DNA from: Atribacter laminatus
GTDB lineage: Bacteria; Atribacterota; Atribacteria; Atribacterales; Atribacteraceae
Assembly: GCF_015775515.1 (NCBI RefSeq)
Contig: NZ_CP065383.1
Location: 1,116,001 to 1,180,000, forward strand
Direction: 5' to 3'
DNA length: 64,000 nucleotides
In this document: piece by piece, positions 7,523-55,207 of the stretch
How positions within the stretch are numbered: the stretch's first letter is position 1
How the letters are laid out: each line of letters starts with the position of its first letter
Notes under the pieces: generated by a model
Database searches by the model: none
What the model was told of the DNA's origin: nothing
What the model saw: only the letters and a program-made list of their open reading frames with translations
Program-made: the position numbers and the translations under genes

Positions 7523-7676
7523 TGAGTAATATTTTGGGATAGACCCACTCGTATACTCAAAAAGGTCCACCATGAGTATCAAATAGGCCCACCTTGGTCA
7601 TGGAGAGATCCACCTGACATATAATGAGGAAATACACTGTAAAGTGTAAATCTTCATTAGGAGGCTGATCAAATAA

Positions 7677-9972: not shown

Positions 9973-10338
9973 GCCAGAACTAAGTAATTAAGAGTGTATT
10001 TATGTCTGCCGGTTAAAGAGGCTGATGGATAGTACCGACCTCTTGTGGACAACCCTCCGCTTCGTGGACGACCAAAACACGTTGTTCACGCTCTCCACAG
10101 CCTCGGCATCTGGTGTTCTATAGAAATCTTAATCTTGTTCCTTCAAACTACCCATCAAAGAGTACTATTCTCAGAACAGTAAAACTCATGATTCGGAAAA
10201 GTGGGCTTATAGCTATTGTGGTTCATTTAAACCGTCATATATAGCTATGGAGTTAACGTATGCACCTAGTGGATTTATTTGGTGCACTCGATGGGTCTAA
10301 AACATCATACTACTGGGTTTATCATAAGACAATAAACA

Positions 10339-11394: not shown

Positions 11395-11572
11395 ACTCAG
11401 AGTCAGTTTCATTAAAACAAGACAAAAAAACCAGGGTGGCATTTCAAGAGCTCGAGCGAATCCAGTTGCCCGGATAACCAACCCCTGCTAGCCATAACCC
11501 CGTCTCAAATAGCATGACTCATTTTTAATCGGAGATGTCTCGTTATCCTCTTTAAATTGTATAATAGGCCCC
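11395..11572 (-). repeat. Repeat A (IS110-like noncoding end), solo copy 1
   Basis: About 150 bp matching the noncoding leader of the IS110 element at 25346-25496. Shared blocks are ccagggtggcatttcaagag, ggataacc, ccccgtctcaaatagcat and tcgttatcctctttaaattg, ending at ATAATAGGCCCC. It lies downstream of reductase copy 1. No transposase remains beside it. Confidence 0.7.
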
Positions 11573-11606
11573 TTCATGAACGGTTTTTGAAAATTCAGTC
11601 TGACCA

Positions 11607-13727
11607 TCAAGGCTTTAAAATTTGACCAACTACATCAATTGGGAGGTCATTAATTGGATTGCCATTGGGATTAAAGAGGTTATGTTCCTCGATAGTTAAA
11701 CCAATAGTAGTACCGTCTTTAACTGCCGCATGCAGATTTCGTGGTTTCACCGAGTCCCCTATATTCACTACATCAATCCCGGCTGCTTTAATTTGTTGAT
11801 ATAAATCGATATTAGGCTTGGTCCAGCAAGTAACCACATGATCATAAGGTATATTTACCTGGTTAAAGCTTTTATCGACTAAAAAAAGTTCGTTTTCCTT
11901 TATTTCATTGATTTTGCTGTTGGTATAGATTTTCACGGGATATTTGAAAGGTTTCGAACTGAGTGCTTCAGCATCGGTTTGTTGAAATCTCTTGAAAAGA
12001 ACATATTTATGAATAACTTCAATTTTTGAGCCGAATTCTTTTTGATCGGTTATGATAGTCACTTCTTTCCCAATGGAAGCTAAATAAGCAGCGGTATCGG
12101 CTGCAGCATAATGGTCACCCCATATGATAATCTTGGTGCCCTTCAATGGTAGGGATTTGCGATCTTGAGGATGAAATTCACAAGCTACTTTCGGACAGGT
12201 CATCACTTTCTCAAAAGGGATGACAACCTCTTTTAAACCATGAACTTCTGGTACATATGATTGTGCTCCAGTGGCATTAATGACCAGATCAAAGGAACTG
12301 AGCTCTTCAATGCTAGGCGATGTTCTGAGCTGAACTTCAATGCCCAAAACAGCAATCTGGTACCTGATCCAATCGGCATACCATTTCATCTTTTCTTTTC
12401 CATTGACCAGACAACAGCCAAGAATCGCTCCACCAAGTTCTCCGCTTTTTTCAAAGAGAGTCACGAAATGACCTCGTTCGTGCGCAACTCGGGCGGCTTC
12501 TAAACCAGCTGGTCCTCCGCCAACAACGGCAATATGGACAGGAGCAGTGGTTTTTTTCTTTATTTCAAGATGTAGATTATTACAGGAAGGATTGATGGCA
12601 CAAGTCACTTCTTTTTTGGCTAAGATTGAATCCGACCAACAGCCAGTCAAACAGGATATGCACCGACGAATGGCTCGGGTTTTCCCATATTTCGTTTTGA
12701 GCGGCCAATAGGGATCGGCTAATAACTGACGAGAAAGGCCGATTAGGTCAGTTTTTCCTTCAGCTAATATTTGCTCGCAGTATTCCGGATTCCGAAGAGA
12801 ATGACTGTTAATAACCGGAATTTTGACCTGCTTTTTTATCTCTTCTGAAGCATATATTGTCCAACCTTCTGGATAATACATCGGATCAAAACCAGCTCCT
12901 GGCTTTTCCTGGACACTTTGGCTCAAATCGAGTGCAGCTACTCCCGCGTTTTCAAATTCCTTCGCAATTTTAACCGATTCAGTGAGGTCTCGACCTTCTG
13001 GAACCCATTCGTCAACCGAGTAACGAATAAGAACTGGGAAGCCTTTTCCGCATTTCTTTTGAATTGAATCCACAATAGCTAATGGCAAGCGGAGACGATT
13101 TTCAAAACTTCCTCCAAAACGGTCATTTCGTTTATTGAAATAAGGGCTTAAAAATTGTGATAAAAGGTAGCCATGCGCGGCATGGAGCTCTACCGCGTCA
13201 AAGCCGGCTTGCATTACTCTCCAGGCTGCTTCGGAAAAAAGACCTACCAAGCCTATCACTTCGTCGGCTGATAATGCCTGAACTGTTTTGTTAATCGCAA
13301 TGGCATCTGCATTAAAAATTGTTTGATTTTGTGACCAAGGAATCAGACCTTCACAATCATTGGAAACAATATTATCTTGTTTTGACAGTGAAACCTGTCT
13401 CCCCGGGTGCTGAAGCTGAACAGCACATTTTGCCCCGTAACGGTGCATTGATTCCGCCAACCATGCCAACCCAGGTATATAATGGTCCTCGTCTACAACC
13501 ATATTGGATCCCGTTGAACGACAGCTTTTTTCATCAACAGAAGTTCCTCCTACCACGATAAAACCGGTACCGCCTTTTGCTATTGTCGAATAATGATTAA
13601 TATTTTTTTCACTCACCGAACCGTCGATATGGGATGAACTGGTTATGGTGGGAACGTGACAAATCCGGTTGGGAACCAAAATTTCGCCGATCAAGATGGG
13701 TTCAAAAAGGCAATGGAACTTTTCCAT
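11607..13727 (-). CDS. NADH:flavin oxidoreductase, FadH/old yellow enzyme type with Fe-S and FAD domains, copy 1
   Basis: 706 residues. Residues 1-350 form the old-yellow-enzyme TIM barrel with 'HAAHGYLLSQFLSP' (182-195). Then come four Cys (356, 359, 363, 376) that ligate a 4Fe-4S cluster, and an FAD/NAD domain starting 'VVGGGPAGLEAARVA' (401-415). This is the domain order of 2,4-dienoyl-CoA reductase, trimethylamine dehydrogenase and BaiCD-like enzymes, which reduce activated C=C bonds or oxidise amines. The frame continues upstream to 13946 only by reading through repeat A; the ATG at 13727 has GGGAGGA upstream and matches copy 2. It stands alone between two repeat A copies. Copy 2 (51573-53693) differs at roughly 18 residues. 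Substrate unknown. Confidence 0.88.
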   Translation of the reverse strand: MEKFHCLFEPILIGEILVPNRICHVPTITSSSHIDGSVSEKNINHYSTIAKGGTGFIVVGGTSVDEKSCRSTGSNMVVDEDHYIPGLAWLAESMHRYGAKCAVQLQHPGRQVSLSKQDNIVSNDCEGLIPWSQNQTIFNADAIAINKTVQALSADEVIGLVGLFSEAAWRVMQAGFDAVELHAAHGYLLSQFLSPYFNKRNDRFGGSFENRLRLPLAIVDSIQKKCGKGFPVLIRYSVDEWVPEGRDLTESVKIAKEFENAGVAALDLSQSVQEKPGAGFDPMYYPEGWTIYASEEIKKQVKIPVINSHSLRNPEYCEQILAEGKTDLIGLSRQLLADPYWPLKTKYGKTRAIRRCISCLTGCWSDSILAKKEVTCAINPSCNNLHLEIKKKTTAPVHIAVVGGGPAGLEAARVAHERGHFVTLFEKSGELGGAILGCCLVNGKEKMKWYADWIRYQIAVLGIEVQLRTSPSIEELSSFDLVINATGAQSYVPEVHGLKEVVIPFEKVMTCPKVACEFHPQDRKSLPLKGTKIIIWGDHYAAADTAAYLASIGKEVTIITDQKEFGSKIEVIHKYVLFKRFQQTDAEALSSKPFKYPVKIYTNSKINEIKENELFLVDKSFNQVNIPYDHVVTCWTKPNIDLYQQIKAAGIDVVNIGDSVKPRNLHAAVKDGTTIGLTIEEHNLFNPNGNPINDLPIDVVGQILKP

Positions 13728-13825
13728 ATTGAAAGTCCTCCCTAGAGTAGGTACCCCCCCAAGTCTGTTAAGATAAAGATATCGATTTATATAATTTTCA
13801 TTATTGTGGGGGTCTTTCGGTAAAA

Positions 13826-14001
13826 ACTCAAGGCCTGTTTCATTAAAACGAGATAAATAAAACCAGGGCGGCATTTCAAGAGCCCGAGCGAATCCAGTTA
13901 CCCGGATAATGTACCCCAACACCCACAACCCCGTCTCAAATAGCATGACACATTTTTAATCGGAGATGCCTCGTTATCCTCTTTAATTTTTATAATAGAC
14001 C
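13826..14001 (-). repeat. Repeat A (IS110-like noncoding end), solo copy 2
   Basis: Same blocks as copy 1, in the same orientation and on the other side of the reductase gene, starting with AACTCAAGGCCTG and ending ATAATAGACC. Two direct copies flanking the gene could have served as recombination sites for its duplication. Confidence 0.7.
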
Positions 14002-25509: not shown

Positions 25510-25982
25510 CTCATGCTTTTCCAGTTTTTCGATCATCCAAGGAAGTGAGGGAGCGAGTCTTTTCCCACAGGGACAGTCAAAGATGAGCCAGATCTTTTTT
25601 AAAGAAGAAAGGACTTCCTCATCATAGATCTTTTTTCGGTTCCTTTTTACCTTGGTGATGGATCCAATGATTCGATATTTTTTGCCGTCTTGTCCGGTGA
25701 GATAGACTTTCCGTCCATGATGAGAAAGGAGCCAGGAGGCATACGTTCGGGTGTATCCAGTGAGATGGACGAGTTCATTTAAGATCTTTCTTTTTTCTTT
25801 CTTAGTGGCTTTTTGATACTCGGGTGCCATTTTCTTAATGATTTCCCTTCTGGTATTCATGGTGAGCTCCATTTTGTTACCTCCTGTTTTAAAAAAATCA
25901 CCTGGAGGTAGAATAGTTTATATCAAGATTTTTAGGTGAGGCAACGATAGGAGTTCATCAAGATTTTAAGTGATTCAATTCG
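25510..25982 (-). mobile_element. Truncated copy of the DDE-type IS found intact at 53803-55207
   Basis: The terminal 110 bp and the first 121 codons of the transposase (start at 25872) are nearly identical to the intact element; homology stops abruptly after the codons for 'EKLEKHE', 14 bp from the IS110 end. The outer end TCGAATTGAATCAC (on the minus strand) is preserved. Not able to transpose by itself. Confidence 0.85.
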
Positions 25983-26017
25983 ACATATTGACATCTTACT
26001 ATAAATATGTTTAAAAT

Positions 26018-32852: not shown

Positions 32853-33638
32853 ATGAAGCAAATAGTAATTTTAATGTTATTAATAATATTTTTTTGTTTT
32901 CAAATTGATGGATATTCCAAAAATATTAATTTTAATTTATACCGTAATGGATCCCATGAAACTATTTTAGATACCCTTAATTCTGGAGCAGATGTCAATG
33001 CTAAAAGTGAGTATGATAGGACACCTCTTATGTATGCGGCTTGGGAAAACCAAAACCCTGAAGTAATAAAACTCCTTATTCATTCTGGAGCAGATGTCAA
33101 TGCGAAGGATCGCTTTGATAGGACACCTCTTATGTATGCGGCTTGGGAAAACCAAAACCCTGAAGTAATAAAACTCCTTATTCATTCTGGAGCAGATGTC
33201 AATGCTAAAAGTGAGTATGATAGGACACCTCTTATGTATGCGGCTTGGGAAAACCAAAACCCTGAAGTAATAAAACTCCTTATTCATTCTGGAGCAGATG
33301 TCAATGCGAAGGACAGTCTTTATAGAAGCCCTTTAACATATGCAGCAAAATATAACCAAAACCCTGAAGTAATAAAACTCCTTATTCATTCTGGAGCAGA
33401 TGTCAATGCTAAAAGTGAGTATGGTAAAACACCTCTTATGTATGCGGCTTGGGAAAACCAAAACCCTGAAGTAATAAAACTCCTTATTCATTCTGGAGCA
33501 GATGTCAATGCTAAAAGTGAGTATGGTAAAACACCTCTCAACTATGCATTATATAATATTAATAATGAGATCGTCGAAGTATTGTTAGATAATGGGGCAG
33601 ACGCTCGTGTTATGGATGAGTGTGGGTGCGAAAGATAA
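32853..33638 (+). CDS. Secreted or periplasmic ankyrin-repeat protein
   Basis: 261 residues. Hydrophobic N-terminus (residues 3-18, 'IVILMLLIIFFCFQI') acts as signal peptide or anchor. Then six to seven ankyrin repeats with consensus 'TPLMYAAWENQNPEVIKLLI' and 'SGADVNAKSEYDR', 34 residues each. At the DNA level the units are almost identical (102-bp period), so the array has been copied recently. The last two units are divergent ('DGADARVMDECGC'-like end with a Cys pair). Ankyrin arrays bind proteins; the partner is not known. No operon partner: a terminator precedes and an IS4-type element follows. Confidence 0.87.
   Translation: MKQIVILMLLIIFFCFQIDGYSKNINFNLYRNGSHETILDTLNSGADVNAKSEYDRTPLMYAAWENQNPEVIKLLIHSGADVNAKDRFDRTPLMYAAWENQNPEVIKLLIHSGADVNAKSEYDRTPLMYAAWENQNPEVIKLLIHSGADVNAKDSLYRSPLTYAAKYNQNPEVIKLLIHSGADVNAKSEYGKTPLMYAAWENQNPEVIKLLIHSGADVNAKSEYGKTPLNYALYNINNEIVEVLLDNGADARVMDECGCER
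32981..33592 (+). repeat. 102-bp tandem repeats within the ankyrin gene
   Basis: The sequence TTCTGGAGCAGATGTCAATG starts units at 32981, 33083, 33185, 33287, 33389 and 33491, exactly 102 bp apart. Units 1, 2, 3 and 5 are nearly identical; unit 4 differs most. In-frame gain or loss of units is expected. Confidence 0.92.
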
Positions 33639-37542: not shown

Positions 37543-39120
37543 GTTCGCAATTTCGCACCTTGAAAAAAGCCACCGGAGACTCCAAAATGAAGGTTGTACG
37601 AAACAAAAACTTCATCGAGGAGGAATATCCGATGGCTCAAAATAATCATACACCATATCTTTTAAAAATGCTCCTTGCATTCATGACTCAAACCTGATCC
37701 TCTCTATGCTAGGCTCGAGTGGTTAACCAATGAACTTATGAAACTAAAACTGAAAACAAAGTAGGGGCTCACCAAGGAGAGCATTGTTCAATCCGAATTA
37801 CCTATTTCTCTGGAACCCAAGCAAGACGATTTGATGCCCGATTCGGTACGATCTCCCTTCTGGTTCCAAAGCTGAGAAAAGGAGGCTCTATTCCTTTTTT
37901 TGTGACCGAAAGGAAACGCTCGGAACAAGCCCTCCTGAAAGGTGGTTCAAGAAGCCTTTATCAATGGTGTTTCCACCCGAAAGATGGAGCGCCTTGCTCA
38001 AAGCTTAGGGATTGAGTCCCTCTCTGCTGGTCAAGTATCAGAAATCACCAAAGACCTGAGTGATCAAGTGGAATGGTTCCGTACCCGTCCTTTAGAAAAA
38101 GAATATCCAGTCATTTGGGTTGATGCCCTCTACGAGAAAGTTCGCTGTGAAAGACACGTCATCAGCATGGCGGTAGCTCTCGTTCAGGGTCTGACCAGCG
38201 AGGGAAATCGAGAGATCCTGGCGGTCGAACCCCTGATAGCTTGAATCAGAAGACACTTATACTCATCTCTTTGAACAGCTTAAAAGACGAGGAGTGGAAA
38301 CCGTCTGGCTGTGTGCATCCATTGCTCATGCAGGGCTTAAAAATGCCATTCAGAAATCTTTCTGAGGATCAAGTTGGCAACGGTGTAAAGTACACTTTAT
38401 GCGCAACCTCCTTGTCCATATTCCCCATAAAGAAAAAGAATCTTTTGCTGCGAAACTGAAGCAAATCTGGAATCAACCGAACCAAGAGTGTGCAAAGCAA
38501 TATGCCCATTTACTCATCCAGGAATACCGAGATCGCTTTCTTCAAGCCATTGCTCTTTTAGAGGAAGGGCTAGAAGACTCGTTACAATTCCTGGCTTTTC
38601 CTCACCTTGACCAACGAAAGATCTCTTCGACCAACTCACTCGAGCAAGTTCATAAAGAGATTCGTCGCCGCACCCGAGTGGTAGAGGGATCTTTCCTACC
38701 ACTGATTCCTATCTCCGGTTGGTCACCAGTTATCTCATTGAGTATACGAAAAGATTTGGATGAAGAGTAAAAAATATATCAACTCTGAGGCGATTACCAA
38801 GCAACAAGTAGAGCTTCTAAAGATAGCCTAAGGAAAAAAAGAAAGTCAAAAGAAAAAAAGAGGCTGTGGATAGATGGACAACCCTGTGGGTTGACCACAG
38901 ATCCACAGCCCGACGACTCATGAATAGTTATTCACTAAAATACCAGAAAGAATTGACCAAATAGAAAGATTGTATTCTTCTCTTTGTTTATTTTCCATAT
39001 TCATAAAAAGGAGGTGAATCAATCGAGTTATTACTCAAAGAGAGATGACTTTTCATTCAAGTAAGGTCATCTCTGTGTTTAAAAAGAGTCTCCGGTGTTT
39101 GCTAAGAGTAAATTGCGAAC
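37543..39120 (+). mobile_element. Decayed IS256/mutator-type element
   Basis: Outer ends GTTCGCAATTT (37543-37553) and AAATTGCGAAC (39110-39120) are inverted, with further similarity inside (CCACCGGAGA against TCTCCGGTG). Between them lies a broken mutator transposase. The stretch 38770-39090 holds a hairpin (GGCTGTGGA...TCCACAGCC, 38871-38910) and no gene. The right boundary overlaps an IstB-like fragment, so the exact limits are uncertain. Confidence 0.5.
37632..38769 (+). pseudogene. IS256-family transposase, multiply disrupted
   Basis: Starts 'MAQNNHTPYLLKMLL' after GAGGAGGAAT, then frameshifts. 37942-38244 carries 'VWVDALYEKVR'-like sequence ('PVIWVDALYEKVRCERHVIS') with the first catalytic Asp. 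38399-38770 carries 'YRDRFLQAIALLEEGLEDSLQFL' and 'STNSLEQVHKEIRRRTRVVE' with the Glu region. At least three frames are needed to read through, so no enzyme is made. Confidence 0.75.
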
Positions 39121-39637
39121 ATTATTTGACACATACCTAACGAGGGCTTCTTTTGTTAAAGAAAAAGAAAACCTCATCTGCTTTGGACCAGTTGGGACTG
39201 GTAAGACTCACTGTGCGACAGCAGTGGGTGTGGAAGTCTGTCACCAGGGGAAAAGAGTCCGCTATGAGCGAACCGCTCATCTGGTGAATCAACTGGTTGA
39301 TGCCAAAGCCCGAGGAACGCTCACTCATTTTTTTAAAAAGCTCTCACGACTTGATCTTTTAATTTGTGATGAATGGGGATATATCCCTTTGGATCGGGAA
39401 GGAGTGAAACTCCTCTTTCAAGTCATCTCTGATTGTTATGAGAAAAGGAGCGTGATCATCACTACCAATTTAGAATTCAGCAAATGGAATGGAATTTTCT
39501 TTGATGATGTGATCACCAGTGCTATTCTTGACCGGTTGATCCATCATTGTCATCTTGTGGTATTTACTGGAAAGAGTTATCGTTTTAAAACATTCAAGTT
39601 TAAATCATTAATCTCAACTGGGGTGCTGGAATTTTAA
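39095..39637 (+). pseudogene. IstB-like ATPase remnant of a different IS21-type element
   Basis: 180 codons open. Walker A 'GPVGTGKTHCATAVG', Walker B 'LDLLICDEWGY' and 'ITTNLEFSKWNGIFFDD', 'AILDRLIHHCHLVVFTGKSYR' are clearly IstB, but of another subgroup than the two intact copies in this window. The N-terminal helical domain and the istA gene are missing, so the gene is truncated on the left. A second, shorter relic of its 3' end lies at 56128-56262. Confidence 0.75.
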
Positions 39638-40503: not shown

Positions 40504-41810
40504 TTAGATTTCCTGAATTATTTTAATCTCATCATTAGATAGATTAAATAAATGAAAAGTTAAGTTGTCTATTTCTCTTTCATAATATATTATATTCGCA
40601 TCTAATTTTTTTTGCTTTTCAACTAATATTTGATTTACTAGGTTTATAATTTTAACTGATATTTTCGAGTCAAAAAAAGGCATAGGTAGCTTTTCCAGGA
40701 AGTTAGTTCTATAACGCAGATAACCACCTCCCATATGCATACCACCAAAAAGAATTTTATACAATTCAGAAAATAATTTTGAATTTAGTAAACCTAAAAT
40801 ATATTTTATATCAATATCATTCGAAATTAATGTTCCAAAATATACTCCTCCTTGTGGAATAAACTTCATTTCATCATAGGTAGCTGTAATAAAAAGTGAA
40901 TCTTCAGCAATCAATATTTTTGGTTTAAATAATTTCGTGTATCTAACGGAATTTTTAGAAATTACTTTATCAAGGTTGATTTCTGAGATATATGAATCTT
41001 CAGTTATAAGTGTCCATCTCTTAAACTGGTATTGTTTAACAATTCCAAAATCTGATTTTATTTTATCTTCGTATTTAGTTGGAATTCTCAACCCCTCTGA
41101 AATACTCAGATAATTACCTAAACATGGTTCATTCTTTAATAAACTGAGAAGTATTTTTAATTTTTTTTGATTTATATTAATTGGGACAACAGATTCTGGA
41201 AATTGCATAAAGGTATTAATAGATAAGCAATATTTAGAATCATTTGAATTACTAAGGTTTCCAATGGATTGAGCTTCACGAACAATCATATTTAACTTTT
41301 GTTGGTTTTTTATAAAAAGGGAAATTATTGGATAATTCGATACATCATCAAATACTTCTAATTTTGATGTGCTTACAATTTCTCCCTGACTAATATTTTT
41401 AAAAATTAGATTTCTTAATATTTTTGCAGATGATGCTGCACAATATTTATTTGGGGTTATATAAGACAATATTCCTCTATTTTTTAAAATTTTAAAGCAT
41501 AATTCAAAGAAAAGATAATATAGATCATATTTGCCGACAGCTGCATTGAAATTTTCCTTAAAATAAGTTTTCTCATCTAAGGGTATATTATCAACCCTTA
41601 CATATGGTGGATTCCCAATAACTACATCAAAACCACCTTTCTTATGAAATACCTCAGAAAAATATAGTTTCCAAAGGAAAAAGGGTTTTATATTTTTACC
41701 AGAAGTGAATTCCAATAACTGCTTTTCTGTTGTTTCCAGGTTAAATCCAAATACCTTATATACTTTTTCTTTTTCTCTAAATATATGTATGTCACGTTCT
41801 TTTTCGTTTG
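40504..41810 (-). pseudogene. Eco57I-like DNA methyltransferase, C-terminal part (split by IS21 copy 2)
   Basis: The 3' portion of a gene whose 5' portion is at 44633-46826. It contains the catalytic motif IV 'VVIGNPPYVRVDNIPLDEKTYF', within residues 797-818 of the rejoined protein, the 'YDLYYLFFELC' helix and 'GILSYITPNKYCAASSAKILRNLIF', all typical of gamma-class N6-adenine methylases of type I/IIG systems, followed by a target-recognition-like domain ('GGVYFGTLISNDIDIKYILGLLNSKLF' and 'LRYRTNFLEKLPMP'). Without the SAM-binding N-terminal part it cannot methylate. An internal TTG at 41715 is not a real start. Confidence 0.9.
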
Positions 41811-41970
41811 GTAATCTGAGTAATATTTTGGGATAGACCCACTCGTATACTCAAAAAGGTCCACCATGAGTATCAAATAGGCCCACCTTGGTCATGGAGA
41901 GATCCACCTGACATATAATGAGGAAATACACTGTAAAGTGTAAATCTTCATTAGGAGGCTGATCAAATAA

Positions 41971-43524
41971 ATGATCAAGTATCGAGAAATTCTTCGGCTT
42001 CACAGCCAAGGTGTGAGTCAACGTGGCATTGCTGCCAGTTGCCAGTGCTCACGGACCACAATCCGTAATGTGGTTGAACGGGCAGAAAGGCATGAGATTT
42101 CATGGCCTTTCGATAAAAACATGTCGGATGCAGATCTTCAGGAACTCCTTTTTCCGGAAAAAAGGAGTCAGTCCAATCGAAAAATACCGGATTGCGAATA
42201 TGTTCATAAAGAAATGGCCAAAAGTGGTGTCACCTTAAGTTTGTTGTGGCATGAGTACCATGAACAATGCCGCTTCAATGGTGAAATCCCACTCATGTAC
42301 AGCCAATTCTGTCGGTATTATCATAAGTATGCCAATACCACCAAAGCCACTATGCGCATTAAGCGCAAACCCGGTGAAATGCTGGAAGTGGACTGGGCTG
42401 GAAAGACTGGTTTTATTGTTGATAATCTAACCGGTGAACTTATTCCAGCCTATATCTTCGTAGCGAGCCTATCTTGCAGCCAGTATGCCTATGTAGAAGC
42501 CTTCCTGTCAATGGATATGGAAAGCTGGGTCAATGCTCATGTTCATGCGTTCAAATACTTTGGTGGAGTGGCCAGAATCCTCGTGCCAGACAATTTAAAA
42601 ACCAGTGTAGATAAAGCCTCTCGACCAGATCCCAAGATTAATAGAACCTATCAAGAAATGGCCGAGCATTACGGGACAGCAGTCATTCCAGCCCGAGTCA
42701 GGCGCCCCAAAGACAAGCCCCATGCCGAAAGTACGGTGGGTATTATTTCCACCTGGATCATTGCCTCTTTGCGAAACCAACAGTTCTTTTCATTACACGA
42801 ACTGAATAGCGCCATCCGTCTTAAGCTGGAAGAATTCAACCAGAAACCTTTTCAAAAGAAGCCGGGAAGCAGGAAAAGCGCCTTCCTAGAAGAGGAAAAA
42901 GCACTGCTTTTGCCTTTGCCTACTTCCCCATACGAGCTTGCCACCTGGTCAACGGCGTCCGTACAGTACGATTATCACATAATTGTGGATAAAAATCACT
43001 ACTCAGTGCCCTATGAGTACATCCGGCATCAAGTGGAGGTACGTATAACCAGCAAAACTGTTGAAGTTTTTTACCACAATCATCGCATTGCTTCCCATAT
43101 TCGGATTCGCGGTCAGGAAGGCCAGATTGTCACGGTACCGGATCACATGCCAGAGAAACATAAACAGTACCTGGCTGTAAATGCTGATCATTTTAGGAAT
43201 TGGGCTGCTTCCATTGGACCTCATGCCGTCATTGTGGTGAATGCTCTTTTGTCAGCATCAAGAGTTGAGAAACAAGGTTACCGTTCTTGTACATCGCTTA
43301 TGAAACTCGCTGACAAGTATTCTTTATCCCGCTTTGAAGAAGCGTGCCAGCGGGCACTTTGTTACACGCCCAGTCCGAGTTTCAAAATCATCCAGACCAT
43401 CCTCAAAACCGGTCAGGATAGAATATCAGTCCAATCAGATCGACAAAAAGCGACAAAAGACAATCCCAACATCTACGGATTTGTCCGGGGTGCCGGCTAC
43501 TATGGAGGAAAAGACAATGATTAA
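41971..43524 (+). CDS. istA: IS21-family transposase IstA, copy 2
   Basis: 517 residues, apparently identical to the copy at 7677-9236 except for one missing Leu-Pro unit in the linker near residue 317. Helix-turn-helix, DDE integrase core and C-terminal domain are complete. Overlaps istB by 8 bp. Being near-identical to copy 1 implies a very recent move. Confidence 0.95.
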   Translation: MIKYREILRLHSQGVSQRGIAASCQCSRTTIRNVVERAERHEISWPFDKNMSDADLQELLFPEKRSQSNRKIPDCEYVHKEMAKSGVTLSLLWHEYHEQCRFNGEIPLMYSQFCRYYHKYANTTKATMRIKRKPGEMLEVDWAGKTGFIVDNLTGELIPAYIFVASLSCSQYAYVEAFLSMDMESWVNAHVHAFKYFGGVARILVPDNLKTSVDKASRPDPKINRTYQEMAEHYGTAVIPARVRRPKDKPHAESTVGIISTWIIASLRNQQFFSLHELNSAIRLKLEEFNQKPFQKKPGSRKSAFLEEEKALLLPLPTSPYELATWSTASVQYDYHIIVDKNHYSVPYEYIRHQVEVRITSKTVEVFYHNHRIASHIRIRGQEGQIVTVPDHMPEKHKQYLAVNADHFRNWAASIGPHAVIVVNALLSASRVEKQGYRSCTSLMKLADKYSLSRFEEACQRALCYTPSPSFKIIQTILKTGQDRISVQSDRQKATKDNPNIYGFVRGAGYYGGKDND

Positions 43525-44260
43525 TTCTACGACCATGAACAAGCTGCATGACATGCGACTCTCCGCTATGGCGGATGCTTTCAAACGCCAACTGTCTGAT
43601 GAGAAATATCAGGAGCTATCGTTTGAAGAACGGGTTGGTATTCTTGTTGATGTGGAATGGGCTAAACGCAGAAGCAATAAACTGCTCCATCTCATTAAAA
43701 AAGCAGATTTCCGCTATCCTCAGGCTAGCATTGAAGATATTGAATACCATGCCGACAGGAAACTAGATAAGGCACAAATCCTACGGCTATCTGGGTGCGC
43801 TTACATCCAGGAGAAACGCAACCTCATCATCATGGGTGCCTCTGGAAACGGGAAATCTTATGTTGCCTGTGCTTTTGGTATGGCGGCTTGTCGCAACTAT
43901 TATACCGTTAAGTATATCCGACTACCGGATCTTCTGGATGAACTGGCAGTGGCTCGAGGTGAAGGTGTCTATCAGATGGTGATGAAGAAGTACAAAAAGG
44001 TTGGCTTACTCATTTTGGATGAATGGCTCTTAACTCCACTTAAAGACACCCAGGCAATGGATCTCCTTGAGATCGTTGAAGCAAGACATCAGAATGCTTC
44101 TACTATTTTTTGCACCCAATTTGCTCCACGTGGGTGGCATGAAAAGATCGGCGAAGATACACTAGCAGATGCCATTCTTGATCGTATTGTCCATGATTCC
44201 TATACCATCCTTATTGACGGCAAAGTGTCAATGAGGGAACGACATGGGATTAAAAATTGA
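43517..44260 (+). CDS. istB: IS21-family helper ATPase IstB, copy 2
   Basis: 247 residues, apparently the same protein as the copy at 9229-9972 (Walker A 'GASGNGKS', Walker B 'LLILDEW'). The start was chosen as for copy 1 by the GGAGGAAAAG ribosome-binding site. Active pair with the overlapping istA. Confidence 0.94.
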   Translation: MINSTTMNKLHDMRLSAMADAFKRQLSDEKYQELSFEERVGILVDVEWAKRRSNKLLHLIKKADFRYPQASIEDIEYHADRKLDKAQILRLSGCAYIQEKRNLIIMGASGNGKSYVACAFGMAACRNYYTVKYIRLPDLLDELAVARGEGVYQMVMKKYKKVGLLILDEWLLTPLKDTQAMDLLEIVEARHQNASTIFCTQFAPRGWHEKIGEDTLADAILDRIVHDSYTILIDGKVSMRERHGIKN

Positions 44261-44632
44261 GCCAGAACTAAGTAATTAAGAGTGTATTTATGTCTGCCGG
44301 TTAAAGAGGCTGATGGATAGTACCGACCTCTTGTGGACAACCCTCCGCTTCGTGGACGACCAAAACACGTTGTTCACGCTCTCCACAGCCTCGGCATCTG
44401 GTGTTCTATAGAAATCTTAATCTTGTTCCTTCAAACTACCCATCAAAGAGTACTATTCTCAGAACAGTAAAACTCATGATTCGGAAAAGTGGGCTTATAG
44501 CTATTGTGGTTCATTTAAACCGTCATATATAGCTATGGAGTTAACGTATGCACCTAGTGGATTTATTTGGTGCACTCGATGGGTCTAAAACATCATACTA
44601 CTGGGTTTATCATAAGACAATAAACAGTAATC

Positions 44633-46826
44633 TTGAATAAGTATCTTCTATATTTTTCAATTTTTTAAAATAATCAGATTTTTGAATCTTTAGTTTCAAT
44701 TCAAATATTTTTATTAACAAATCTTCAATTTCTTTTTTCAAAAATATTTTTCTTGTAATATTAGATTCATTTATGAACTCATATTTTTTAATTTGAAACT
44801 GAGTAATAATTTCATCAAATTCATTTTTAAATAATTTATTATTCTTTTCCTTAGATTCATCAAAATTAATCCCCATAAATTCAGAAATTAAACTATTCCC
44901 TTGCATAATGCGATAATCCAAATTTGGTAATGGCTTTATGTTTCTAATATTTTCTTCATCCACAACTAATGAGAGCCACAACCTCAATTTTGCTATTTCC
45001 ACAGCTCCCGGATCAATGTCTACACCATAAAGAGAGTGTTCGATACAATGTCGCTTAAATTCATAAGGAGACCGTTGGTTATCCTTGATGAAATCAGAGA
45101 GCACATTTCTAGTTTTGACAATTTCATTCATCATTCCAACCAGAAAGGCACCCGAACCCACTGCTGGATCGCAAACAGTAATATCAGCAAGAGCTTGATC
45201 TATTTGAGAAGCATTTTTTCTAATACTTTCAGGGAGAAGATAGGTGTATCTTTCTGTTTCTTTTCCATTTCTTTCAATCCAGGCTTCATTTTCTTTAATT
45301 CGCTCACCATAAATAATTAAGGTTTCGATATCTTTTTTTGGGATTTCTGGTTTTTCCCTATGTTCTAAGACTAAATCTAATTGTCCCTTTTTAAATCTGT
45401 TTCCAAATAAATCAAGATTTTTATCTCCAAGTTTTTGATAATATGTCTTATCGGGATTTAACTCGGTATATAAATAATTAATCAAGCTTTGTTGACACAT
45501 ATAATGCACAATCTCACGGGGAGTATAATAAACACCATATTGTTTATTAAACTTATTTTCCTCTCCTTTTTTACCACTCTTTAAGGCTTTTTTATAATCT
45601 TCAAAGTTATCTGGACGAATCGCATTAAATTTCTCATAAGCTTTTCCAAGTAATTCTGGATCAATAGCTACTTCCTTTTCCAAGGGTTCATCTTCTTTTA
45701 CAGTAAAATTATAGCGATCGAAAATATCAAGAATACCATCCCCAGTATCTCCTTCTTTGGTAGGATTTGAATTGGAAAAGAGCTCATTGGGTAATAATAT
45801 ATCGGTATGTACCCAATCATATCCACCAATCGGATCAAAAAGTCCGCCATTGAGGAAGGGAATTCGACAATTGAATTTGCTAAAGTAATCATCATAAGAG
45901 CTGTGATCGGTTGAGAGAGCTTCGTAAAATAAAGGCTCTAAAATATCATTGAAAAAGTTATGATAATTTGCATGTTTTTTTTCAAACAATTCACGTAAAA
46001 AATGCTTGGATCCACTTCCCCAATCATCATCACGACCTACTCCAAACCAACCTTTTTTTTGCAAAAAGTAGAGAAATACAATCTGACCCAAAAGCTTTTT
46101 TGAGAAATTTACTGTATCAATATTTTTAGATTCAAAATCAGCCGCTATTTTCGGATCTTTTTTTATAATTTTGTCGAGTTCCTCTTTTGTACGGATGAAA
46201 AGTTCGCGATATTTAATAAAGAATTCTCTGGTAACAGTTTCAATATCAAATGCTTTCTCAATTTCATCAAGAGTCGGTGACTGTTCATCGTTCTCCAAAA
46301 TTCCGATCAGGCGACTTTTAGCAGTGTGGCATTTTTCATTCTCACCCACTAAAAAAGACCATCGGCGGACAGGAGTAAATACCTCCTTGACTTTTGTTTT
46401 TCCTGATTCAGTTTGGTGTGTTGTATAATCCATCTTCACTAAGGAAAAGCGCCAATCTTTTTTATCCGGGGGAACAAAGGCGACTAAAGCGGCATCTTTC
46501 AGATCGCCTCCTCGGCTTCCATTTAAATACCTCGCTACAAAATTCCGTTGCATGGTTCGAGCACGTTCGAGAGATGTTTCTTTTTGAAGGGTAATGATAA
46601 GAATATCAAGCGTTTTTTCGCTATTTTTATATTTTCCAATTCGTTCTAAAGATTTAATATATTGTTTATAAGCATCAGGGATATAATTTCCCTGGTAAAT
46701 GAAGCGAGCTTCATCAAAAAAGTTCAAAAGATTTTTAATAAATTTGTTAAAAGTGGCTTTATCAAAAGGATTTTCAAACGTATCTTTAATAAGCTGTAAA
46801 GCTTGTTTCCTATCCATTTCAATCAC
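44633..46826 (-). pseudogene. Eco57I-like DNA methyltransferase, N-terminal part (split by IS21 copy 2)
   Basis: The 5' portion of the gene, about 731 native codons before the target duplication; read through into the IS it ends at 44610 after five foreign residues. Residues 1-540 form the large helical N-terminal part of type-IIG/PglX-like proteins ('NKQYGVYYTPREIVHYMCQQSL' precedes the methylase fold). SAM motif I is 'DPAVGSGAFLVGM' at 553-565, followed by 'LYGVDIDPGAVEIAKLRLWL'. The catalytic NPPY lies beyond the IS. Joining the two parts across one GTAATC gives 3507 bp, a continuous 1168-residue frame. Its start overlaps the helicase stop by 8 bp. Confidence 0.92.
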
Positions 46827-49800
46827 CCGTTAAATACATTGAAAGAATAATTTCTCGTTTTCCGATAACAGAAGAATTTTGTTCAGCATAATGACTTTGT
46901 AATAAACGTTCTGGAATGATAGTTTGGAGAACAGCTAACACTTTGTAAGGATTCATCAATTCATTGTTTAGTTTTTCTAAAGATTTTAAGGTTTTTTTGA
47001 TCGTTTGTTTGGGTAATCCCCCTTCCTCAAGCTGAATCATAACATTTTTGAGATATAACTCTTGAATATCGGTTAATTTTTGTGAATTCTTTAAAGTTAA
47101 TTTGAGGATGCGCAATAAATCACTGGAACTATCGCGACCTCTTCGTTTTTGGGAATTTATTATTTCTTCAGTTGTTGCAAATATAAAAGCCTCTTTGTTT
47201 TTATCTAAGAGATCATAAAACTGTTCTGAAAGATTTTTCTTTTTTTCTTCTGGCTTACTTTCAAGTAATTGAGCTGCGGTCATAAAATCCAATTCTTCAG
47301 TTTTATCATTAATAGAGCTTATAAAGAATTTTTGTAGTTTTCCTCGACGGAAATAGGTGAGAAGTGAATTAGCATGCGAAAATTTTTGTTTGGCAGTTCT
47401 TGCTTTTTTAGGAAGCTGTTTTATTTTTTCAAATAGATCGGGATTATTTTCACGGATATCACGGATAATCTGGAGATATTTCAAATCACTTTCTTCTTCA
47501 TCCTCACCTTCAATTGTTTTCTTTGATATTAAGCGGTCAAAAAGCTCATGTGATCCAATTGGTTCACCTTCGGTTAATAGTTCGGCATCTCCACCAAGTA
47601 AGGTTAAAAATGAATTTATTTTCCCTTCAGCCGCTTCTCTTAATTTTATCTGATCATTTGATTGTTTGGTTGGAAAGAAATTAAAGGTGTAGATTGTATC
47701 GTGGGGTGTATCAACACGATTAATTCGTCCCACCCGTTGCATCATCCGGGTTGGATTCCAAGGAATATCATAGTTAATTACTACATTTGCGCGGTGTAGG
47801 TTAACTCCTTCGGAAAGCACTTCAGTGGATATAAGTATACGGAAATCATTTTTTTTGTAGCGAGCCCGAGCATCAAAATTTTCAATAACTTTGTCGCGAA
47901 TAGACTCACCTGAATCACCAGTGTAAAGAAGGACCTTATTGGCATATTCTTGGTTTAAATGAGTATAAAGATAATGGGCAGTTTCTTTGGATTCAGTAAA
48001 AATAATAAGATGATTCTTTTTTAGAACTTCATTGTTTGATAATTCAGTTTTGAATTTTTGCAACTTTGGATCACGGGTAATATTTTGCCATAATTTCTCT
48101 ATTTCCAAGAGAATCTCAAAATCACTTTGCAAATCATTTTTGAATTCTTCTCGAAAATCTTCGCTTTTATATTTATCAGCCTTTCCTTCATCTATTAATT
48201 GTTGGATGGCTGCGTCATCATCGTTTTCAAGGAGATCAAAAATTTTATTGATATGTTTTTTGCTAATATACACAGAGCCATTTTCATATTCTTTAATATA
48301 CATTCTATAAGATTGAATAAATCTTTGTATTGATTTCCGGAAAGCAAAAAAACTACTTTCTAATCTTTTAACCAACAAAATTTTCATAAAACGTCCCATG
48401 TTAATTTGCGACTGAGCTTCAAGTTGGTCAATTTTACCTTTAAAGTATAGTAAGGGTGTATATCGTGAATATCGAAAATGATTGGTAATCAATTCGATCG
48501 TTTTATTAAAAATTTCATCTTCTTTATCATTAAGTTCATAAAATAAGGGTTCTGGTTTTTTGACTTCAGGAAATTTAAGACCTCGTTCTTGGATGTCCTT
48601 TTTAAAATACTTTTCAATTTCGGTTCTCGTGCGCCGAACCATTAGATATTTCAAAACCTTTTCTCGAATTTCTCGAGCATTTGATTTGACTATTTTAATA
48701 AATTCTTCATAATTGCCTTTTCGGTCTAAACCTTTCAGTTTTTTATCCAACTGTTGAAAGAAAGATTCTAGATCAGGTAGATTGGGTATTGTACTTTTTT
48801 TAGCTTTCTGAAAGAGTTTTAGTAAACTAAGAATGTCTTTTGGAGAATTATTGTATGGAGTAGCAGTAACGAGAATAACTCTTTTCCCCCGGCAGATTTC
48901 TGCTAATTTCTCGTAAGAAATGGTACTCTCAGTTCGGAATCGATGAGCCTCGTCTATTATTATATTGGAATATTTTTCCAGATTTCTGCTTAAAAGGTCA
49001 TCTAATTTTCCAATTGATTCATAATCTGCATGGACCCGAAAGTCAGAGAAAACATTTTTCCAAGAACCAGGATTAGATTCATTCAGCAATACAGGTGGAG
49101 CAATGACCAGAGATCGTCCATCCAACTGACCAGCCAGCATGGCAGATATATAGGTTTTTCCTAAACCAACAACATCGGAAATAAAAACTCCACCGTATTC
49201 AAGAAGAATTTTTTTAGCATTTAATACTGCTTGTTCCTGATACTCAAGCTTTATAAAATTCTCCGGTAAATAGTGAATAAAAATATCATCAGTTTGACTC
49301 AACTCATCTTTAAAATATTCATATAGAAATTTTAAATATAATTCATAAGGGGTTATATTTTGAGTTAACCAGGTTTTTTCTTGAATTGTCTGAGTATATT
49401 TTTCACTTACATCTACTGCTTCAGCCCATAATTCTTCAAATTTAGCTTTAGCAAAATCGTAATCACTTCTATTTTTGAGTTCCACATTAAATTCTAAATT
49501 ATCGATTAACCCAGCTTGAGTAAAATTACTTGAACCGGTAATAACTCGTCCAGTATCTCTATCGCCTTCTTTAAAAGTCATAATATATAATTTGGCATGA
49601 ATATTCTTTGATGGATAGGCTCTAAGCGCTAATTTGCCGCTTTTAATCCACTCAATAAATTTATTGGTTCCCTCTTCAACGAGATGAGTGTCTTCTGATT
49701 CTTCCATTTCACATTGTGCTAATTTTTCTATTTTCTTTTTAGTTTCAGCATGAGAAAAATCTAGGACTTGCTGTTCGGTTTTATTCGCTGTTTCTACCAT

Positions 49801-50007
49801 ATCAAGGGTTTCTTGGCAGGTATTAATGCCTATGAGAATTCGTATTTTTTTTGTTGAATCAAGAGAAGGATAGATTGCGTGAAAACCACTTGAATAGAAA
49901 TAACCAACCAGACAGTCAAAAAAATCTGTGCTTTTAATAAGAACTTTAAATCTCTCTTTTAAGTTTTGATTTGCTTCATTGGTAATAAAAGATAAATCAG
50001 TATTCAT
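46819..50007 (-). CDS. PLD-nuclease/SNF2-like helicase fusion of a restriction-type defence locus
   Basis: 1062 residues. Residues 20-170 carry one phospholipase-D-type motif: 'HAKLYIMTFKEGDRDTG' (His137, Lys139) and 'GSSNFTQAGL' (158-167), as in PLD nucleases that work as dimers. A superfamily-2 helicase follows: Walker A 'GLGKTYIS' (281-288), DEAH (352-355), 'VTATPYNN', and the C-terminal 'STEVLSEGVNLHRANVVINYD' and 'QRVGRINRVDTPHD' (arginine finger). A helical tail of 250 residues remains unassigned. Fused or adjacent PLD plus helicase with a methylase is the layout of NgoAVII/CglI-type and related ATP-dependent restriction systems. The gene is intact and first in the operon; the methylase behind it is destroyed. 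Confidence 0.88.
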   Translation of the reverse strand: MNTDLSFITNEANQNLKERFKVLIKSTDFFDCLVGYFYSSGFHAIYPSLDSTKKIRILIGINTCQETLDMVETANKTEQQVLDFSHAETKKKIEKLAQCEMEESEDTHLVEEGTNKFIEWIKSGKLALRAYPSKNIHAKLYIMTFKEGDRDTGRVITGSSNFTQAGLIDNLEFNVELKNRSDYDFAKAKFEELWAEAVDVSEKYTQTIQEKTWLTQNITPYELYLKFLYEYFKDELSQTDDIFIHYLPENFIKLEYQEQAVLNAKKILLEYGGVFISDVVGLGKTYISAMLAGQLDGRSLVIAPPVLLNESNPGSWKNVFSDFRVHADYESIGKLDDLLSRNLEKYSNIIIDEAHRFRTESTISYEKLAEICRGKRVILVTATPYNNSPKDILSLLKLFQKAKKSTIPNLPDLESFFQQLDKKLKGLDRKGNYEEFIKIVKSNAREIREKVLKYLMVRRTRTEIEKYFKKDIQERGLKFPEVKKPEPLFYELNDKEDEIFNKTIELITNHFRYSRYTPLLYFKGKIDQLEAQSQINMGRFMKILLVKRLESSFFAFRKSIQRFIQSYRMYIKEYENGSVYISKKHINKIFDLLENDDDAAIQQLIDEGKADKYKSEDFREEFKNDLQSDFEILLEIEKLWQNITRDPKLQKFKTELSNNEVLKKNHLIIFTESKETAHYLYTHLNQEYANKVLLYTGDSGESIRDKVIENFDARARYKKNDFRILISTEVLSEGVNLHRANVVINYDIPWNPTRMMQRVGRINRVDTPHDTIYTFNFFPTKQSNDQIKLREAAEGKINSFLTLLGGDAELLTEGEPIGSHELFDRLISKKTIEGEDEEESDLKYLQIIRDIRENNPDLFEKIKQLPKKARTAKQKFSHANSLLTYFRRGKLQKFFISSINDKTEELDFMTAAQLLESKPEEKKKNLSEQFYDLLDKNKEAFIFATTEEIINSQKRRGRDSSSDLLRILKLTLKNSQKLTDIQELYLKNVMIQLEEGGLPKQTIKKTLKSLEKLNNELMNPYKVLAVLQTIIPERLLQSHYAEQNSSVIGKREIILSMYLTGD

Positions 50008-51440: not shown

Positions 51441-51572
51441 GAATTGTAGTAAAAATTATAGGCTTGGTTTGAGGAAAGCGATCTTGATACTCCTGATTCA
51501 TCCCAAGAGTTTCCTCTTAAAATTGTATAATAGACTCCTTCGTGAACGGTTAATGAAAATTCAGTCTGACCA

Positions 51573-53693
51573 TCAAGGCTTTAAAATTTGACCAACTACA
51601 TCAATTGGGAGGTCATTAATTGGATTGCCATTGGGATTAAAGAGGTTATGTTCCTCGATAGTTAAACCGATAGTAGTACCGTCTTTAACTGCCGCATGCA
51701 GATTTCGTGGTTTCACCGAGTCCCCTATATTCACTACATCAATCCCGGCTGCTTTAATTTGTTGATATAAGTCGATATTAGGCTTGGTCCAGCAAGTAAC
51801 CACATGATCATAAGGTATATTTACCTGGTTAGAACTTTTATCGGCTAAAAAAAGTTCGTTTTCCTTTATTTCATTGATTTTGCTGTTGGTATAGATTTTC
51901 ACCGGATATTTGAAAGGTTTCGAAGTTAAGGCTTCAGCATCAGTTTGTTGAAATCTCTTGAAAAGAACATATTTATGAATAACTTCAATTTTTGAGCCGA
52001 ATTCTTTCTGATCGGTTATGATAGTCACTTCTTTCCCAATGGAAGCTAAATAAGCAGCGGTATCGGCTGCAGCATAATGGTCACCCCATATGATAATCTT
52101 GGTGCCCTTCAATGGTAGGGATTTGCGATCTTGAGGATGAAATTCACAAGCTACTTTCGGACAGGTCATCACTTTCTCAAAAGGGATGACAACCTCTTTT
52201 AAACCATGAACTTCTGGTACATATGATTGTGCTCCAGTGGCATTAATGACCAGATCAAAGGAACTGAGCTCTTCAATGCTAGGCGATGTTCTGAGTTGAA
52301 CTTCAATGCCCAAAACAGCAATCTGGTACCTGATCCAATCGGCATACCATTTCATCTTTTCTTTTCCATTGACCAGACAACAGCCAAGAATCGCTCCACC
52401 AAGTTCTCCGCTTTTTTCAAAGAGAGTCACGAAATGACCTCGTTCGTGCGCAACTCGGGCGGCTTCTAAACCAGCTGGTCCTCCACCAACAACGGCAATA
52501 TGGACAGGAGCAGTGGTTTTTTTCTTTATTTCAAGATGTTGATTATTACAGGAAGGATTGATGGCACAAGTCACTTCTTTTTTGGCTAAAATTGAATCCG
52601 ACCAACAGCCAGTCAAACAGGATATGCACCGACGAATGGCTCGGGTTTTCCCATATTTCGCTTTGAGCGGCCAATAGGGATCAGCTAATAACTGACGAGA
52701 AAGGCCGATCAGGTCAGTTTTTCCTTCAGCTAATATTTGCTCGCAGTATTCTGGATTTCGAAGAGAATGACTGTTAATAACCGGAATTTTGACCTGCTTT
52801 TTAATGGCTTCTGAAGCATATATTGTCCAACCTTCAGGATAGTACATCGGATCAAAACCAGCTCCTGGTCTTTCCTGGATACTTTGGCTCAAATCGAGTG
52901 CAGCTGCTCCGGCGTTTTCAAATTCCTTCGCAACTTTAACCGATTCAATGAGGTCTCGACCTCCTGGAACCCATTCGTCAACCGAGTAACGAATAAGAAC
53001 TGGGAAGTTTTTCCCGCATTTCTTTTGAATTGAATCCACAATAGCTAATGGCAAGCGGAGACGATTTTCAAAACTTCCTCCAAAACGGTCATTTCGTTTA
53101 TTGAAATAAGGGCTTAAGAATTGTGATAAAAGGTAACCATGCGCGGCATGGAGCTCTACCGCATCAAATCCGGCTTGCATTACTCTCCAGGCTGCTTCGG
53201 AAAAAAGACCTACCAGGCCTATCACTTCGTCGGTTGATAATGCCTGAACTGTTTTGTTAATCGCAATGGCATCTGCATTAAAAAATGTTGGATTTTGTGA
53301 CCAGGGAATCAGGCCTTCACAATTATTGGAGGCAATATTATCCTGTTTTGACAGTGAAACCTGTCTCCCCGGATGCTGAAGCTGAACAGCACATTTTGCC
53401 CCGTAACGGTGCATTGATTCCGCCAACCATGCCAACCCAGGTATATAATGGTCCTCGTCTACAACCATATTGGATCCCGTTGAACGACAGCTTTTTTCAT
53501 CAACAGAAGTTCCTCCTACCACGATAAAACCGGTACCGCCTTTTGCTATTGTCGAATAATGATTAATATTTTTTTCACTCACCGAACCGTCGATATGGGA
53601 TGAACTGGTTATGGTGGGAACGTGACAAATCCGGTTGGGAACCAAAATTTCGCCGATCAAGATGGGTTCAAAAAGGCAATGGAACTTTTCCAT
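51573..53693 (-). CDS. NADH:flavin oxidoreductase, FadH/old yellow enzyme type, copy 2
   Basis: 706 residues, the same domain order and Cys ligands (356, 359, 363, 376) as copy 1; the two differ at about 18 positions by eye, mostly in the N-terminal barrel (for example Val121 to Ala, Asp124 to Asn, Gly229 to Asn, Glu244 to Gly). Catalytic and cofactor residues are unchanged, so both could be active. Duplication covers about 2.3 kb, from roughly 51527 to 53802, where an IS interrupts the upstream repeat A. Substrate unknown. Confidence 0.88.
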   Translation of the reverse strand: MEKFHCLFEPILIGEILVPNRICHVPTITSSSHIDGSVSEKNINHYSTIAKGGTGFIVVGGTSVDEKSCRSTGSNMVVDEDHYIPGLAWLAESMHRYGAKCAVQLQHPGRQVSLSKQDNIASNNCEGLIPWSQNPTFFNADAIAINKTVQALSTDEVIGLVGLFSEAAWRVMQAGFDAVELHAAHGYLLSQFLSPYFNKRNDRFGGSFENRLRLPLAIVDSIQKKCGKNFPVLIRYSVDEWVPGGRDLIESVKVAKEFENAGAAALDLSQSIQERPGAGFDPMYYPEGWTIYASEAIKKQVKIPVINSHSLRNPEYCEQILAEGKTDLIGLSRQLLADPYWPLKAKYGKTRAIRRCISCLTGCWSDSILAKKEVTCAINPSCNNQHLEIKKKTTAPVHIAVVGGGPAGLEAARVAHERGHFVTLFEKSGELGGAILGCCLVNGKEKMKWYADWIRYQIAVLGIEVQLRTSPSIEELSSFDLVINATGAQSYVPEVHGLKEVVIPFEKVMTCPKVACEFHPQDRKSLPLKGTKIIIWGDHYAAADTAAYLASIGKEVTIITDQKEFGSKIEVIHKYVLFKRFQQTDAEALTSKPFKYPVKIYTNSKINEIKENELFLADKSSNQVNIPYDHVVTCWTKPNIDLYQQIKAAGIDVVNIGDSVKPRNLHAAVKDGTTIGLTIEEHNLFNPNGNPINDLPIDVVGQILKP

Positions 53694-53802
53694 AATGAAA
53701 GTCCTCCCTAAAGTAGGTACCCCCCCAAGTCTGTTAAGATAAAGATATCGATTTATATAATTTTCATTATTGTGGGGGACTTTCGGTAAAAACTCAAGGC
53801 CT

Positions 53803-55207
53803 CGAATTGAATCACTTAAAATCTTGATGAACTCCTATCGTTGCCTCACCTAAAAATCTTGATATAAACTATTCTACCTCCAGGTGATTTTTTTAAAACA
53901 GGAGGTAACAAAATGGAGCTCACCATGAATACCAGAAGGGAAATCATTAAGAAAATGGCACCCGAGTATCAAAAAGCCACTAAGAAAGAAAAAAGAAAAA
54001 TCTTAAATGAACTCGTCCATCTCACTGGATACACCCGAACGTATGCCTCCTGGCTCCTTTCTCATCATGGACGGAAAGTCTATCTCACCGGACAAGACGG
54101 CAAAAAATATCGAATCATTGGGTCCATCACCAAGGTAAAAAGGAACCGAAAAAAAATCTATGATGAGGAAGTCCTTTCTTCTTTAAAAAAGATCTGGCTC
54201 ATCTTTGACTGTCCCTGTGGGAAAAGACTCGCTCCCTCACTTCCTTGGATGATCGAAAAACTGGAAAAGCATGAGGAACTGGTTCTCTCCCAAGAGGCGA
54301 GAAGGAAGCTCCTGGCCATATCTACAGCCACCATTGATCGGCTTCTCCAAAAGGAAAAACGAAAGTTCACCCCCATCTCCCGGTCCTACACCAAACCCGG
54401 GACTCTCCTTAAACACCAGATTCCAGTTCGTACCTTTGCCGATTGGGATGAGAAAAGACCAGGATTCTGTGAAATTGATCTGGTTGCCCACGATGGTGGA
54501 AACCCCAGTGGGGATTTCTGCCAAACTCTTGATGTGACCGATGTCTTGACAGGCTGGACCGAAACTCAAGCGGTCAAAAACAAAGCTCAGAAATGGGTCT
54601 TTGAAGCCTTAGCACAGATCCGAGCACGGCTTCCCTTTCCTCTTTTAGGAATCGATTCCGACAATGGAGGAGAATTCATCAATAACCAACTCATTCGGTA
54701 CTGTCAAAAAGAACAGATCACCTTCACCCGGTCTCGACCTTCTAAAAAGAATGATAACTGTTATGTCGAACAAAAGAACTGGACTGTGGTGAGAAAAACG
54801 GTTGGCTATTGTCGCTATGAGACCGAAGACGAACTCCTCCTTCTCAACCAACTCTATTCCCTTCTTCGTCTCTATACTAACTTCTTCCAACCGGTTACCA
54901 AACTGGTTTTCAAAGAGCGAGTGAATAGTAAAGTCAAGAAACACTATGATGAAGCCAAAACTCCACTGATGCGAGTTCTTGACGCCTCATCGATTGATAA
55001 CTCCCTCAAGCAATCCTTAAAAGACCAATATGAAGAACTCAATCCAGCCGAACTCAAACGACAGATTGTCAAAATACAAAACCAATTGATCGAGATGGTG
55101 ACCTTGAAAAATGATTCAATTCCTTACCCCAAGGAGGTGAATTTGGTATAGAATTTTAAATGAGGCATCGAATCCATTTCATCAAGATTTTTAGGTGAGG
55201 CATCACT
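53803..55207 (+). mobile_element. Intact DDE-type insertion sequence with double-box ends
   Basis: 1405 bp flanked by a 5-bp target duplication GGCCT (53798-53802 and 55208-55212). Each end carries two copies of an about 20-bp box (CACCTAAAAATCTTGAT and variants); a 22-bp perfect inverted repeat TGCCTCACCTAAAAATCTTG-AT joins left inner to right outer box. It inserted into the repeat A upstream of reductase copy 2, so it arrived after that duplication or on this copy only. A truncated relative lies at 25510-25982. Confidence 0.88.
53913..55151 (+). CDS. Integrase-core (rve) DDE transposase
   Basis: 412 residues. N-terminal helical DNA-binding part ('NELVHLTGYTRTYASWLLS', residues 29-47), then the RNase-H-like core: 'GFCEIDLVAHDGG' (first Asp), 'LLGIDSDNGGEFINN' (second Asp) and 'NCYVEQKNWTVVRKTVGY' (Glu), i.e. 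a D-D-E triad. Family probably ISNCY or IS481-like; not resolved. ATG follows GGAGGTAAC. Intact and likely active. Confidence 0.88.
   Translation: MELTMNTRREIIKKMAPEYQKATKKEKRKILNELVHLTGYTRTYASWLLSHHGRKVYLTGQDGKKYRIIGSITKVKRNRKKIYDEEVLSSLKKIWLIFDCPCGKRLAPSLPWMIEKLEKHEELVLSQEARRKLLAISTATIDRLLQKEKRKFTPISRSYTKPGTLLKHQIPVRTFADWDEKRPGFCEIDLVAHDGGNPSGDFCQTLDVTDVLTGWTETQAVKNKAQKWVFEALAQIRARLPFPLLGIDSDNGGEFINNQLIRYCQKEQITFTRSRPSKKNDNCYVEQKNWTVVRKTVGYCRYETEDELLLLNQLYSLLRLYTNFFQPVTKLVFKERVNSKVKKHYDEAKTPLMRVLDASSIDNSLKQSLKDQYEELNPAELKRQIVKIQNQLIEMVTLKNDSIPYPKEVNLV

Follow-up and report, generated by a model that had tools for sequence, protein, structure and literature searches.

Introduction

The defence pair made up of a helicase gene and a methyltransferase gene is widespread, yet little studied. 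The architecture considered here is already known, from plasmid pLd8 and from PADLOC ('HKD+Snf2' and 'REase_MTase_IIG'). The orf33-orf34 pair of pLd8, from Lactococcus lactis FM03P, was read as a putative restriction-modification system, and its likeness to class 1 DISARM was pointed out in the same study (PMC6098607). As for the insertion sequence (IS) that concerns us here, the L1/L2 and R1/R2 repeats of IS21 have been described (PMC10122671).

We analysed a 64,000-nucleotide window of the Atribacter laminatus genome (contig NZ_CP065383.1, positions 1,116,001 to 1,180,000; all coordinates below are those of the window), in which the methyltransferase gene of such a pair is interrupted. By far the most probable reading, in our opinion, is that an IS21-family element inserted into an intact methyltransferase gene, that methylation by this locus was lost, that the helicase-nuclease is probably idle, and that the element was active recently.

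Results

The interrupted methyltransferase gene

The insertion sequence (41817-44626, forward strand) is 2,810 bp long, begins with TG, ends with CA and contains istA and istB. The istA gene (41971-43524, forward strand) codes for a 517-aa transposase with an rve domain, matched by NF033546 and by Pfam rve and Mu-transpos_C_2; its score against NF033546, 262.9 bits for a curated cut-off of 160, places it in the IS21 family. The product of istB (43517-44260, forward strand), the AAA+ helper ATPase (IstB_IS21, 3.4e-56), scores 190.8 bits against PF01695, as an IS21 helper should; the listed ORF begins upstream, at 43334, and the ATG at 43517 is the likely start. Each end bears, as in IS21 elements, multiple terminal repeats, four in number and spaced by about 22 bp (near positions 20, 43, 64 and 86 from the left end and 20, 42, 65 and 87 from the right). 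The element is bounded by a short target-site duplication, GTAATC, at 41811-41816 and 44627-44632, as the sequence-only reading had reported; the chance of a given 6-bp match is about 1/4096.

On the opposite strand, the element separates the two parts of an N6-methyltransferase gene. The 5′ part (44627-46826, reverse strand) codes for residues 1-733 of the rejoined protein, and the 3′ part (40504-41816, reverse strand) for NPPY, a TaqI_C-like target-recognition domain and the C-terminus. Joining 40504-41816 and 44633-46826 across one GTAATC gives 3,507 bp, i.e. 1,168 codons closed by one terminal stop, with no internal stop or frameshift, and with DPAVGSGAF (motif I) at residue 553 and NPPY at residue 800. 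The length, the undamaged frame and the reunion of the two motifs had all been announced by the sequence-only reading and proved correct. Its 1168-residue protein corresponds to the open frame, but homologues start at residue 4 of that frame, encoded by the ATG at 46817-46815, one base past the helicase stop, so that the protein conserved among them has 1,165 aa. Similarly, its statement that excision restores the frame holds as an in-silico operation, but we saw no evidence of real excision.

Profile comparisons agree on the nature of the enzyme. PADLOC PDLC03596 (type IIG enzyme-methyltransferase) gives the 5′ part 1,042 bits, aligned to positions 1-666 of the 1,148 in the profile, and matches the 3′ part from position 698 onward; the latter also matches other type II/IIG models. 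The Eco57I Pfam domain, which scores 31 and 101 bits in the separate pieces, reaches 122 bits when they are rejoined, and the TaqI_C domain was located by Pfam on the 3′ part. Among the adenine methyltransferases that the family profile matches, mainly from the NPPY part onward, are M.BseCI, BrxX and M.TaqI; a PDB sequence search with the N-terminal fragment gave no match. No second copy of the interrupted gene was found in the 3.10-Mb genome (one contig of 3,101,225 bases), and other N6-methyltransferases are present elsewhere in it, among them two clear N6_Mtase genes at positions 2,017,460 and 2,559,135 of the genome.

Homologues across the junction

Homologues from Peptococcaceae, Syntrophaceae, Spirochaetia, Nitrospira and Desulfotomaculum were compared with the rejoined protein. 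They are 56-70% identical to it over residues 701-800 and show no gap at the junction, the alignment passing through it unbroken in L001, L002, L003, L005 and the second ORF of L004. A genome of the same phylum (L048) aligns in a single piece over residues 4-909, and another homologue from this phylum (L018) lacks most of a family-specific helical insert, yet is one continuous ORF. The full-length hits predicted by the earlier reading were therefore obtained, in several phyla, and none of the homologues aligned starts or stops at the fragment ends, the outcome which that reading had named as fatal to it. The alternative of two naturally separate genes was rejected, since every homologue covering the junction is continuous there. 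The data give good support to a single, recent insertion into a methyltransferase gene that was intact before.

Past residue 800 the identity falls, mostly to 11-35%, a pattern that would be expected for an exchanged target-recognition domain. Among same-genus genomes, searched for an empty site, no close orthologue of the locus was found. Two homologues have peculiarities of their own. In Spirochaetia (L003:8007-10910), the methyltransferase is cut right behind NPPY and continues in frame as a DUF5131 domain (PF07505, 1.1e-58), so that either the gene has been disrupted here too, in another way, or the assembly was joined there. In Nitrospira (L004:8001-11524), the frame is broken near residue 152 to give two ORFs, because of a frameshift or of an error in sequencing.

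Copies of the element and age of the insertion

The genome contains eight near-full-length copies of the element and one 229-bp fragment. Six of the eight are identical across 2,810 bp, and the most diverged, which has an imperfect duplication (CATAGT/CATAGC), is still 99.4% identical. Perfect target-site duplications of 4-7 bp flank seven of the eight, i.e. six of the seven besides the copy studied here. One of these lies in the window (7523-10338, forward strand; duplication CAAAC) and is 6 bp longer, in frame, within istA. Elements 65-69% alike in DNA exist in the same phylum. The identity of six copies shows that the element was recently active in this genome, although gene conversion among copies could also account for their likeness. 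The sequence-only reading had called the insertion very recent on the ground that no other damage had accumulated; the dating stands thanks to the copies, but the argument from the frame is the weaker one, because a frame can stay open, at p = 0.05, through about 62 random substitutions (1.8%) since insertion.

So many copies could in principle mislead an assembler, reads from another copy bridging two unrelated places. We regard such an artefact as largely refuted and its probability as negligible, since the flanks have a common duplication and rejoin as one homologous protein. Recent activity and the perfect duplication are also what one would see if the insertion were not fixed, with both occupied and empty sites present in the culture, or if the element left precisely and acted as a switch. 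We consider this very improbable: the single assembled contig holds no empty copy, 6-bp repeats are too short for recombination to be efficient, and precise loss is not known as a regular outcome for IS21.

Decayed insertion sequences are plentiful in the region. At 39095-39637 lies what remains of another IS21-like istB gene (PF01695, 6e-56), with transposase fragments close to it at 37.9-38.8 kb. The stretches 25510-25983 and 53802-54275, 99.4% identical and in inverted orientation, pair a truncated transposase copy with the beginning of an intact transposase gene (53913-55151). Two copies of a flavin oxidoreductase region, 97.3% identical and about 40 kb apart (11542-13836 and 51509-53802), are both near IS remnants. 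Elsewhere in the window, a gene at 32853-33638 codes for a small ankyrin-like repeat protein whose N-terminus is signal-like; its DNA repeats, each about 102 bp long, are nearly identical.

The helicase partner

The methyltransferase gene comes last in an operon of two genes. The first (46819-50007, reverse strand) has an intact frame and codes for a 1,062-aa protein with a PLD (HKD) nuclease-like domain fused to an SNF2/SF2 helicase. That the interrupted gene belongs to a helicase-methyltransferase defence pair had been missed in the sequence-only reading of this insertion. The two genes occur together, on the same strand, at 10 other loci, which come from several bacterial phyla and among which are plasmid records of Lactococcus and Prevotella; the helicase gene comes first and the methyltransferase gene follows, except that the order is reversed in L006, and some loci have an extra gene in between. 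Homology and gene order thus mark the pair as a putative restriction-modification or defence system.

Discussion

An IS21-family element jumped into an intact gene for a type IIG-like N6-adenine methyltransferase, duplicating 6 bp of its target. SAM motif I was thereby parted from the target-recognition domain and from NPPY, the catalytic motif IV. The catalytic domain is now encoded in two pieces. The 5′ fragment extends to 44610, where five IS-derived codons are followed by a stop (738 aa in all), and in the 3′ fragment no in-frame start precedes a TTG at 41715, for which no ribosome-binding site is evident. Methylation by the locus, which the earlier reading said should be abolished, very likely is, because 2.8 kb of antisense IS DNA keeps motif I apart from NPPY and because the 3′ piece has that TTG as its only start.

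One may ask whether both fragments are nevertheless made and reassemble as an active split methyltransferase. Their frames are undamaged, naturally split methyltransferases are known, and a low-confidence model (AlphaFold of the homologue L001, six sequences, mean pLDDT 44.9) hints that the junction falls in a turn between two long predicted helices of the helical insert that is much shorter in L018. But the 3′ fragment would have to be translated from its poor start behind 2.8 kb of untranslated antisense IS DNA, promoter-like sites for it are not above chance, and after so recent an insertion open frames are no sign of selection. We therefore find a split enzyme quite improbable, and give the same slight chance to the broader idea of a methyltransferase that is partly or reversibly functional, whether as a split enzyme or through an IS on/off switch, with a conditionally armed helicase-nuclease.

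If, as we favour, the methyltransferase is inactive, restriction has probably been lost too, because the target-recognition domain is held by the methyltransferase, on the lost part, and because the cell lives with its helicase-nuclease gene intact. Deprived of this domain, the helicase-nuclease would probably be idle, which would account for survival of the cell without protective methylation. Its presence in a cell lacking the methyltransferase suggests that the helicase-nuclease does not alone cut unmodified DNA. The locus would offer a natural, clean knockout of one member of such a pair. It also carries a warning for annotation, the two fragments being one broken gene.

The landing of an IS21 element in a defence methyltransferase is an ordinary kind of event, and nothing notable sets this element apart from its family: it shares istA, istB, TG...CA ends and 4-7 bp target duplications, and its end repeats, with their spacing of about 22 bp, are comparable with L1/L2 and R1/R2 of IS21 (PMC10122671). 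With class 1 DISARM (DrmD, DrmMI), the pair has in common an SNF2 helicase and an adenine methyltransferase, through weak profile matches, but its genes score far under the curated cut-offs (131.8 bits against NF038317 for DrmD, where 610 are needed), and no drmA, drmB or drmC was seen on reading the adjoining ORFs, which appear to be ISs, flavin oxidoreductase and sugar-metabolism genes. Type-2 BREX-related, DUF499-centred systems also combine an HKD nuclease-Swi2/Snf2 helicase fusion with an N6-methyltransferase (PMC12839542); the same reading of adjoining ORFs revealed no look-alike of the DUF499 ATPase or of DUF3780, which define them. Membership in either group is not supported. The order and domains are those of the pLd8 pair: a PLD-SNF2 helicase (PLDc_2, SNF2, Helicase_C) is followed on the same strand by an N6-methyltransferase with TaqI_C, in both cases. 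This likeness is one of published description; the corresponding pair of another Lactococcus plasmid (L029) has only 27-29% protein identity with ours. What distinguishes the present locus from pLd8 is that its methyltransferase gene is interrupted.
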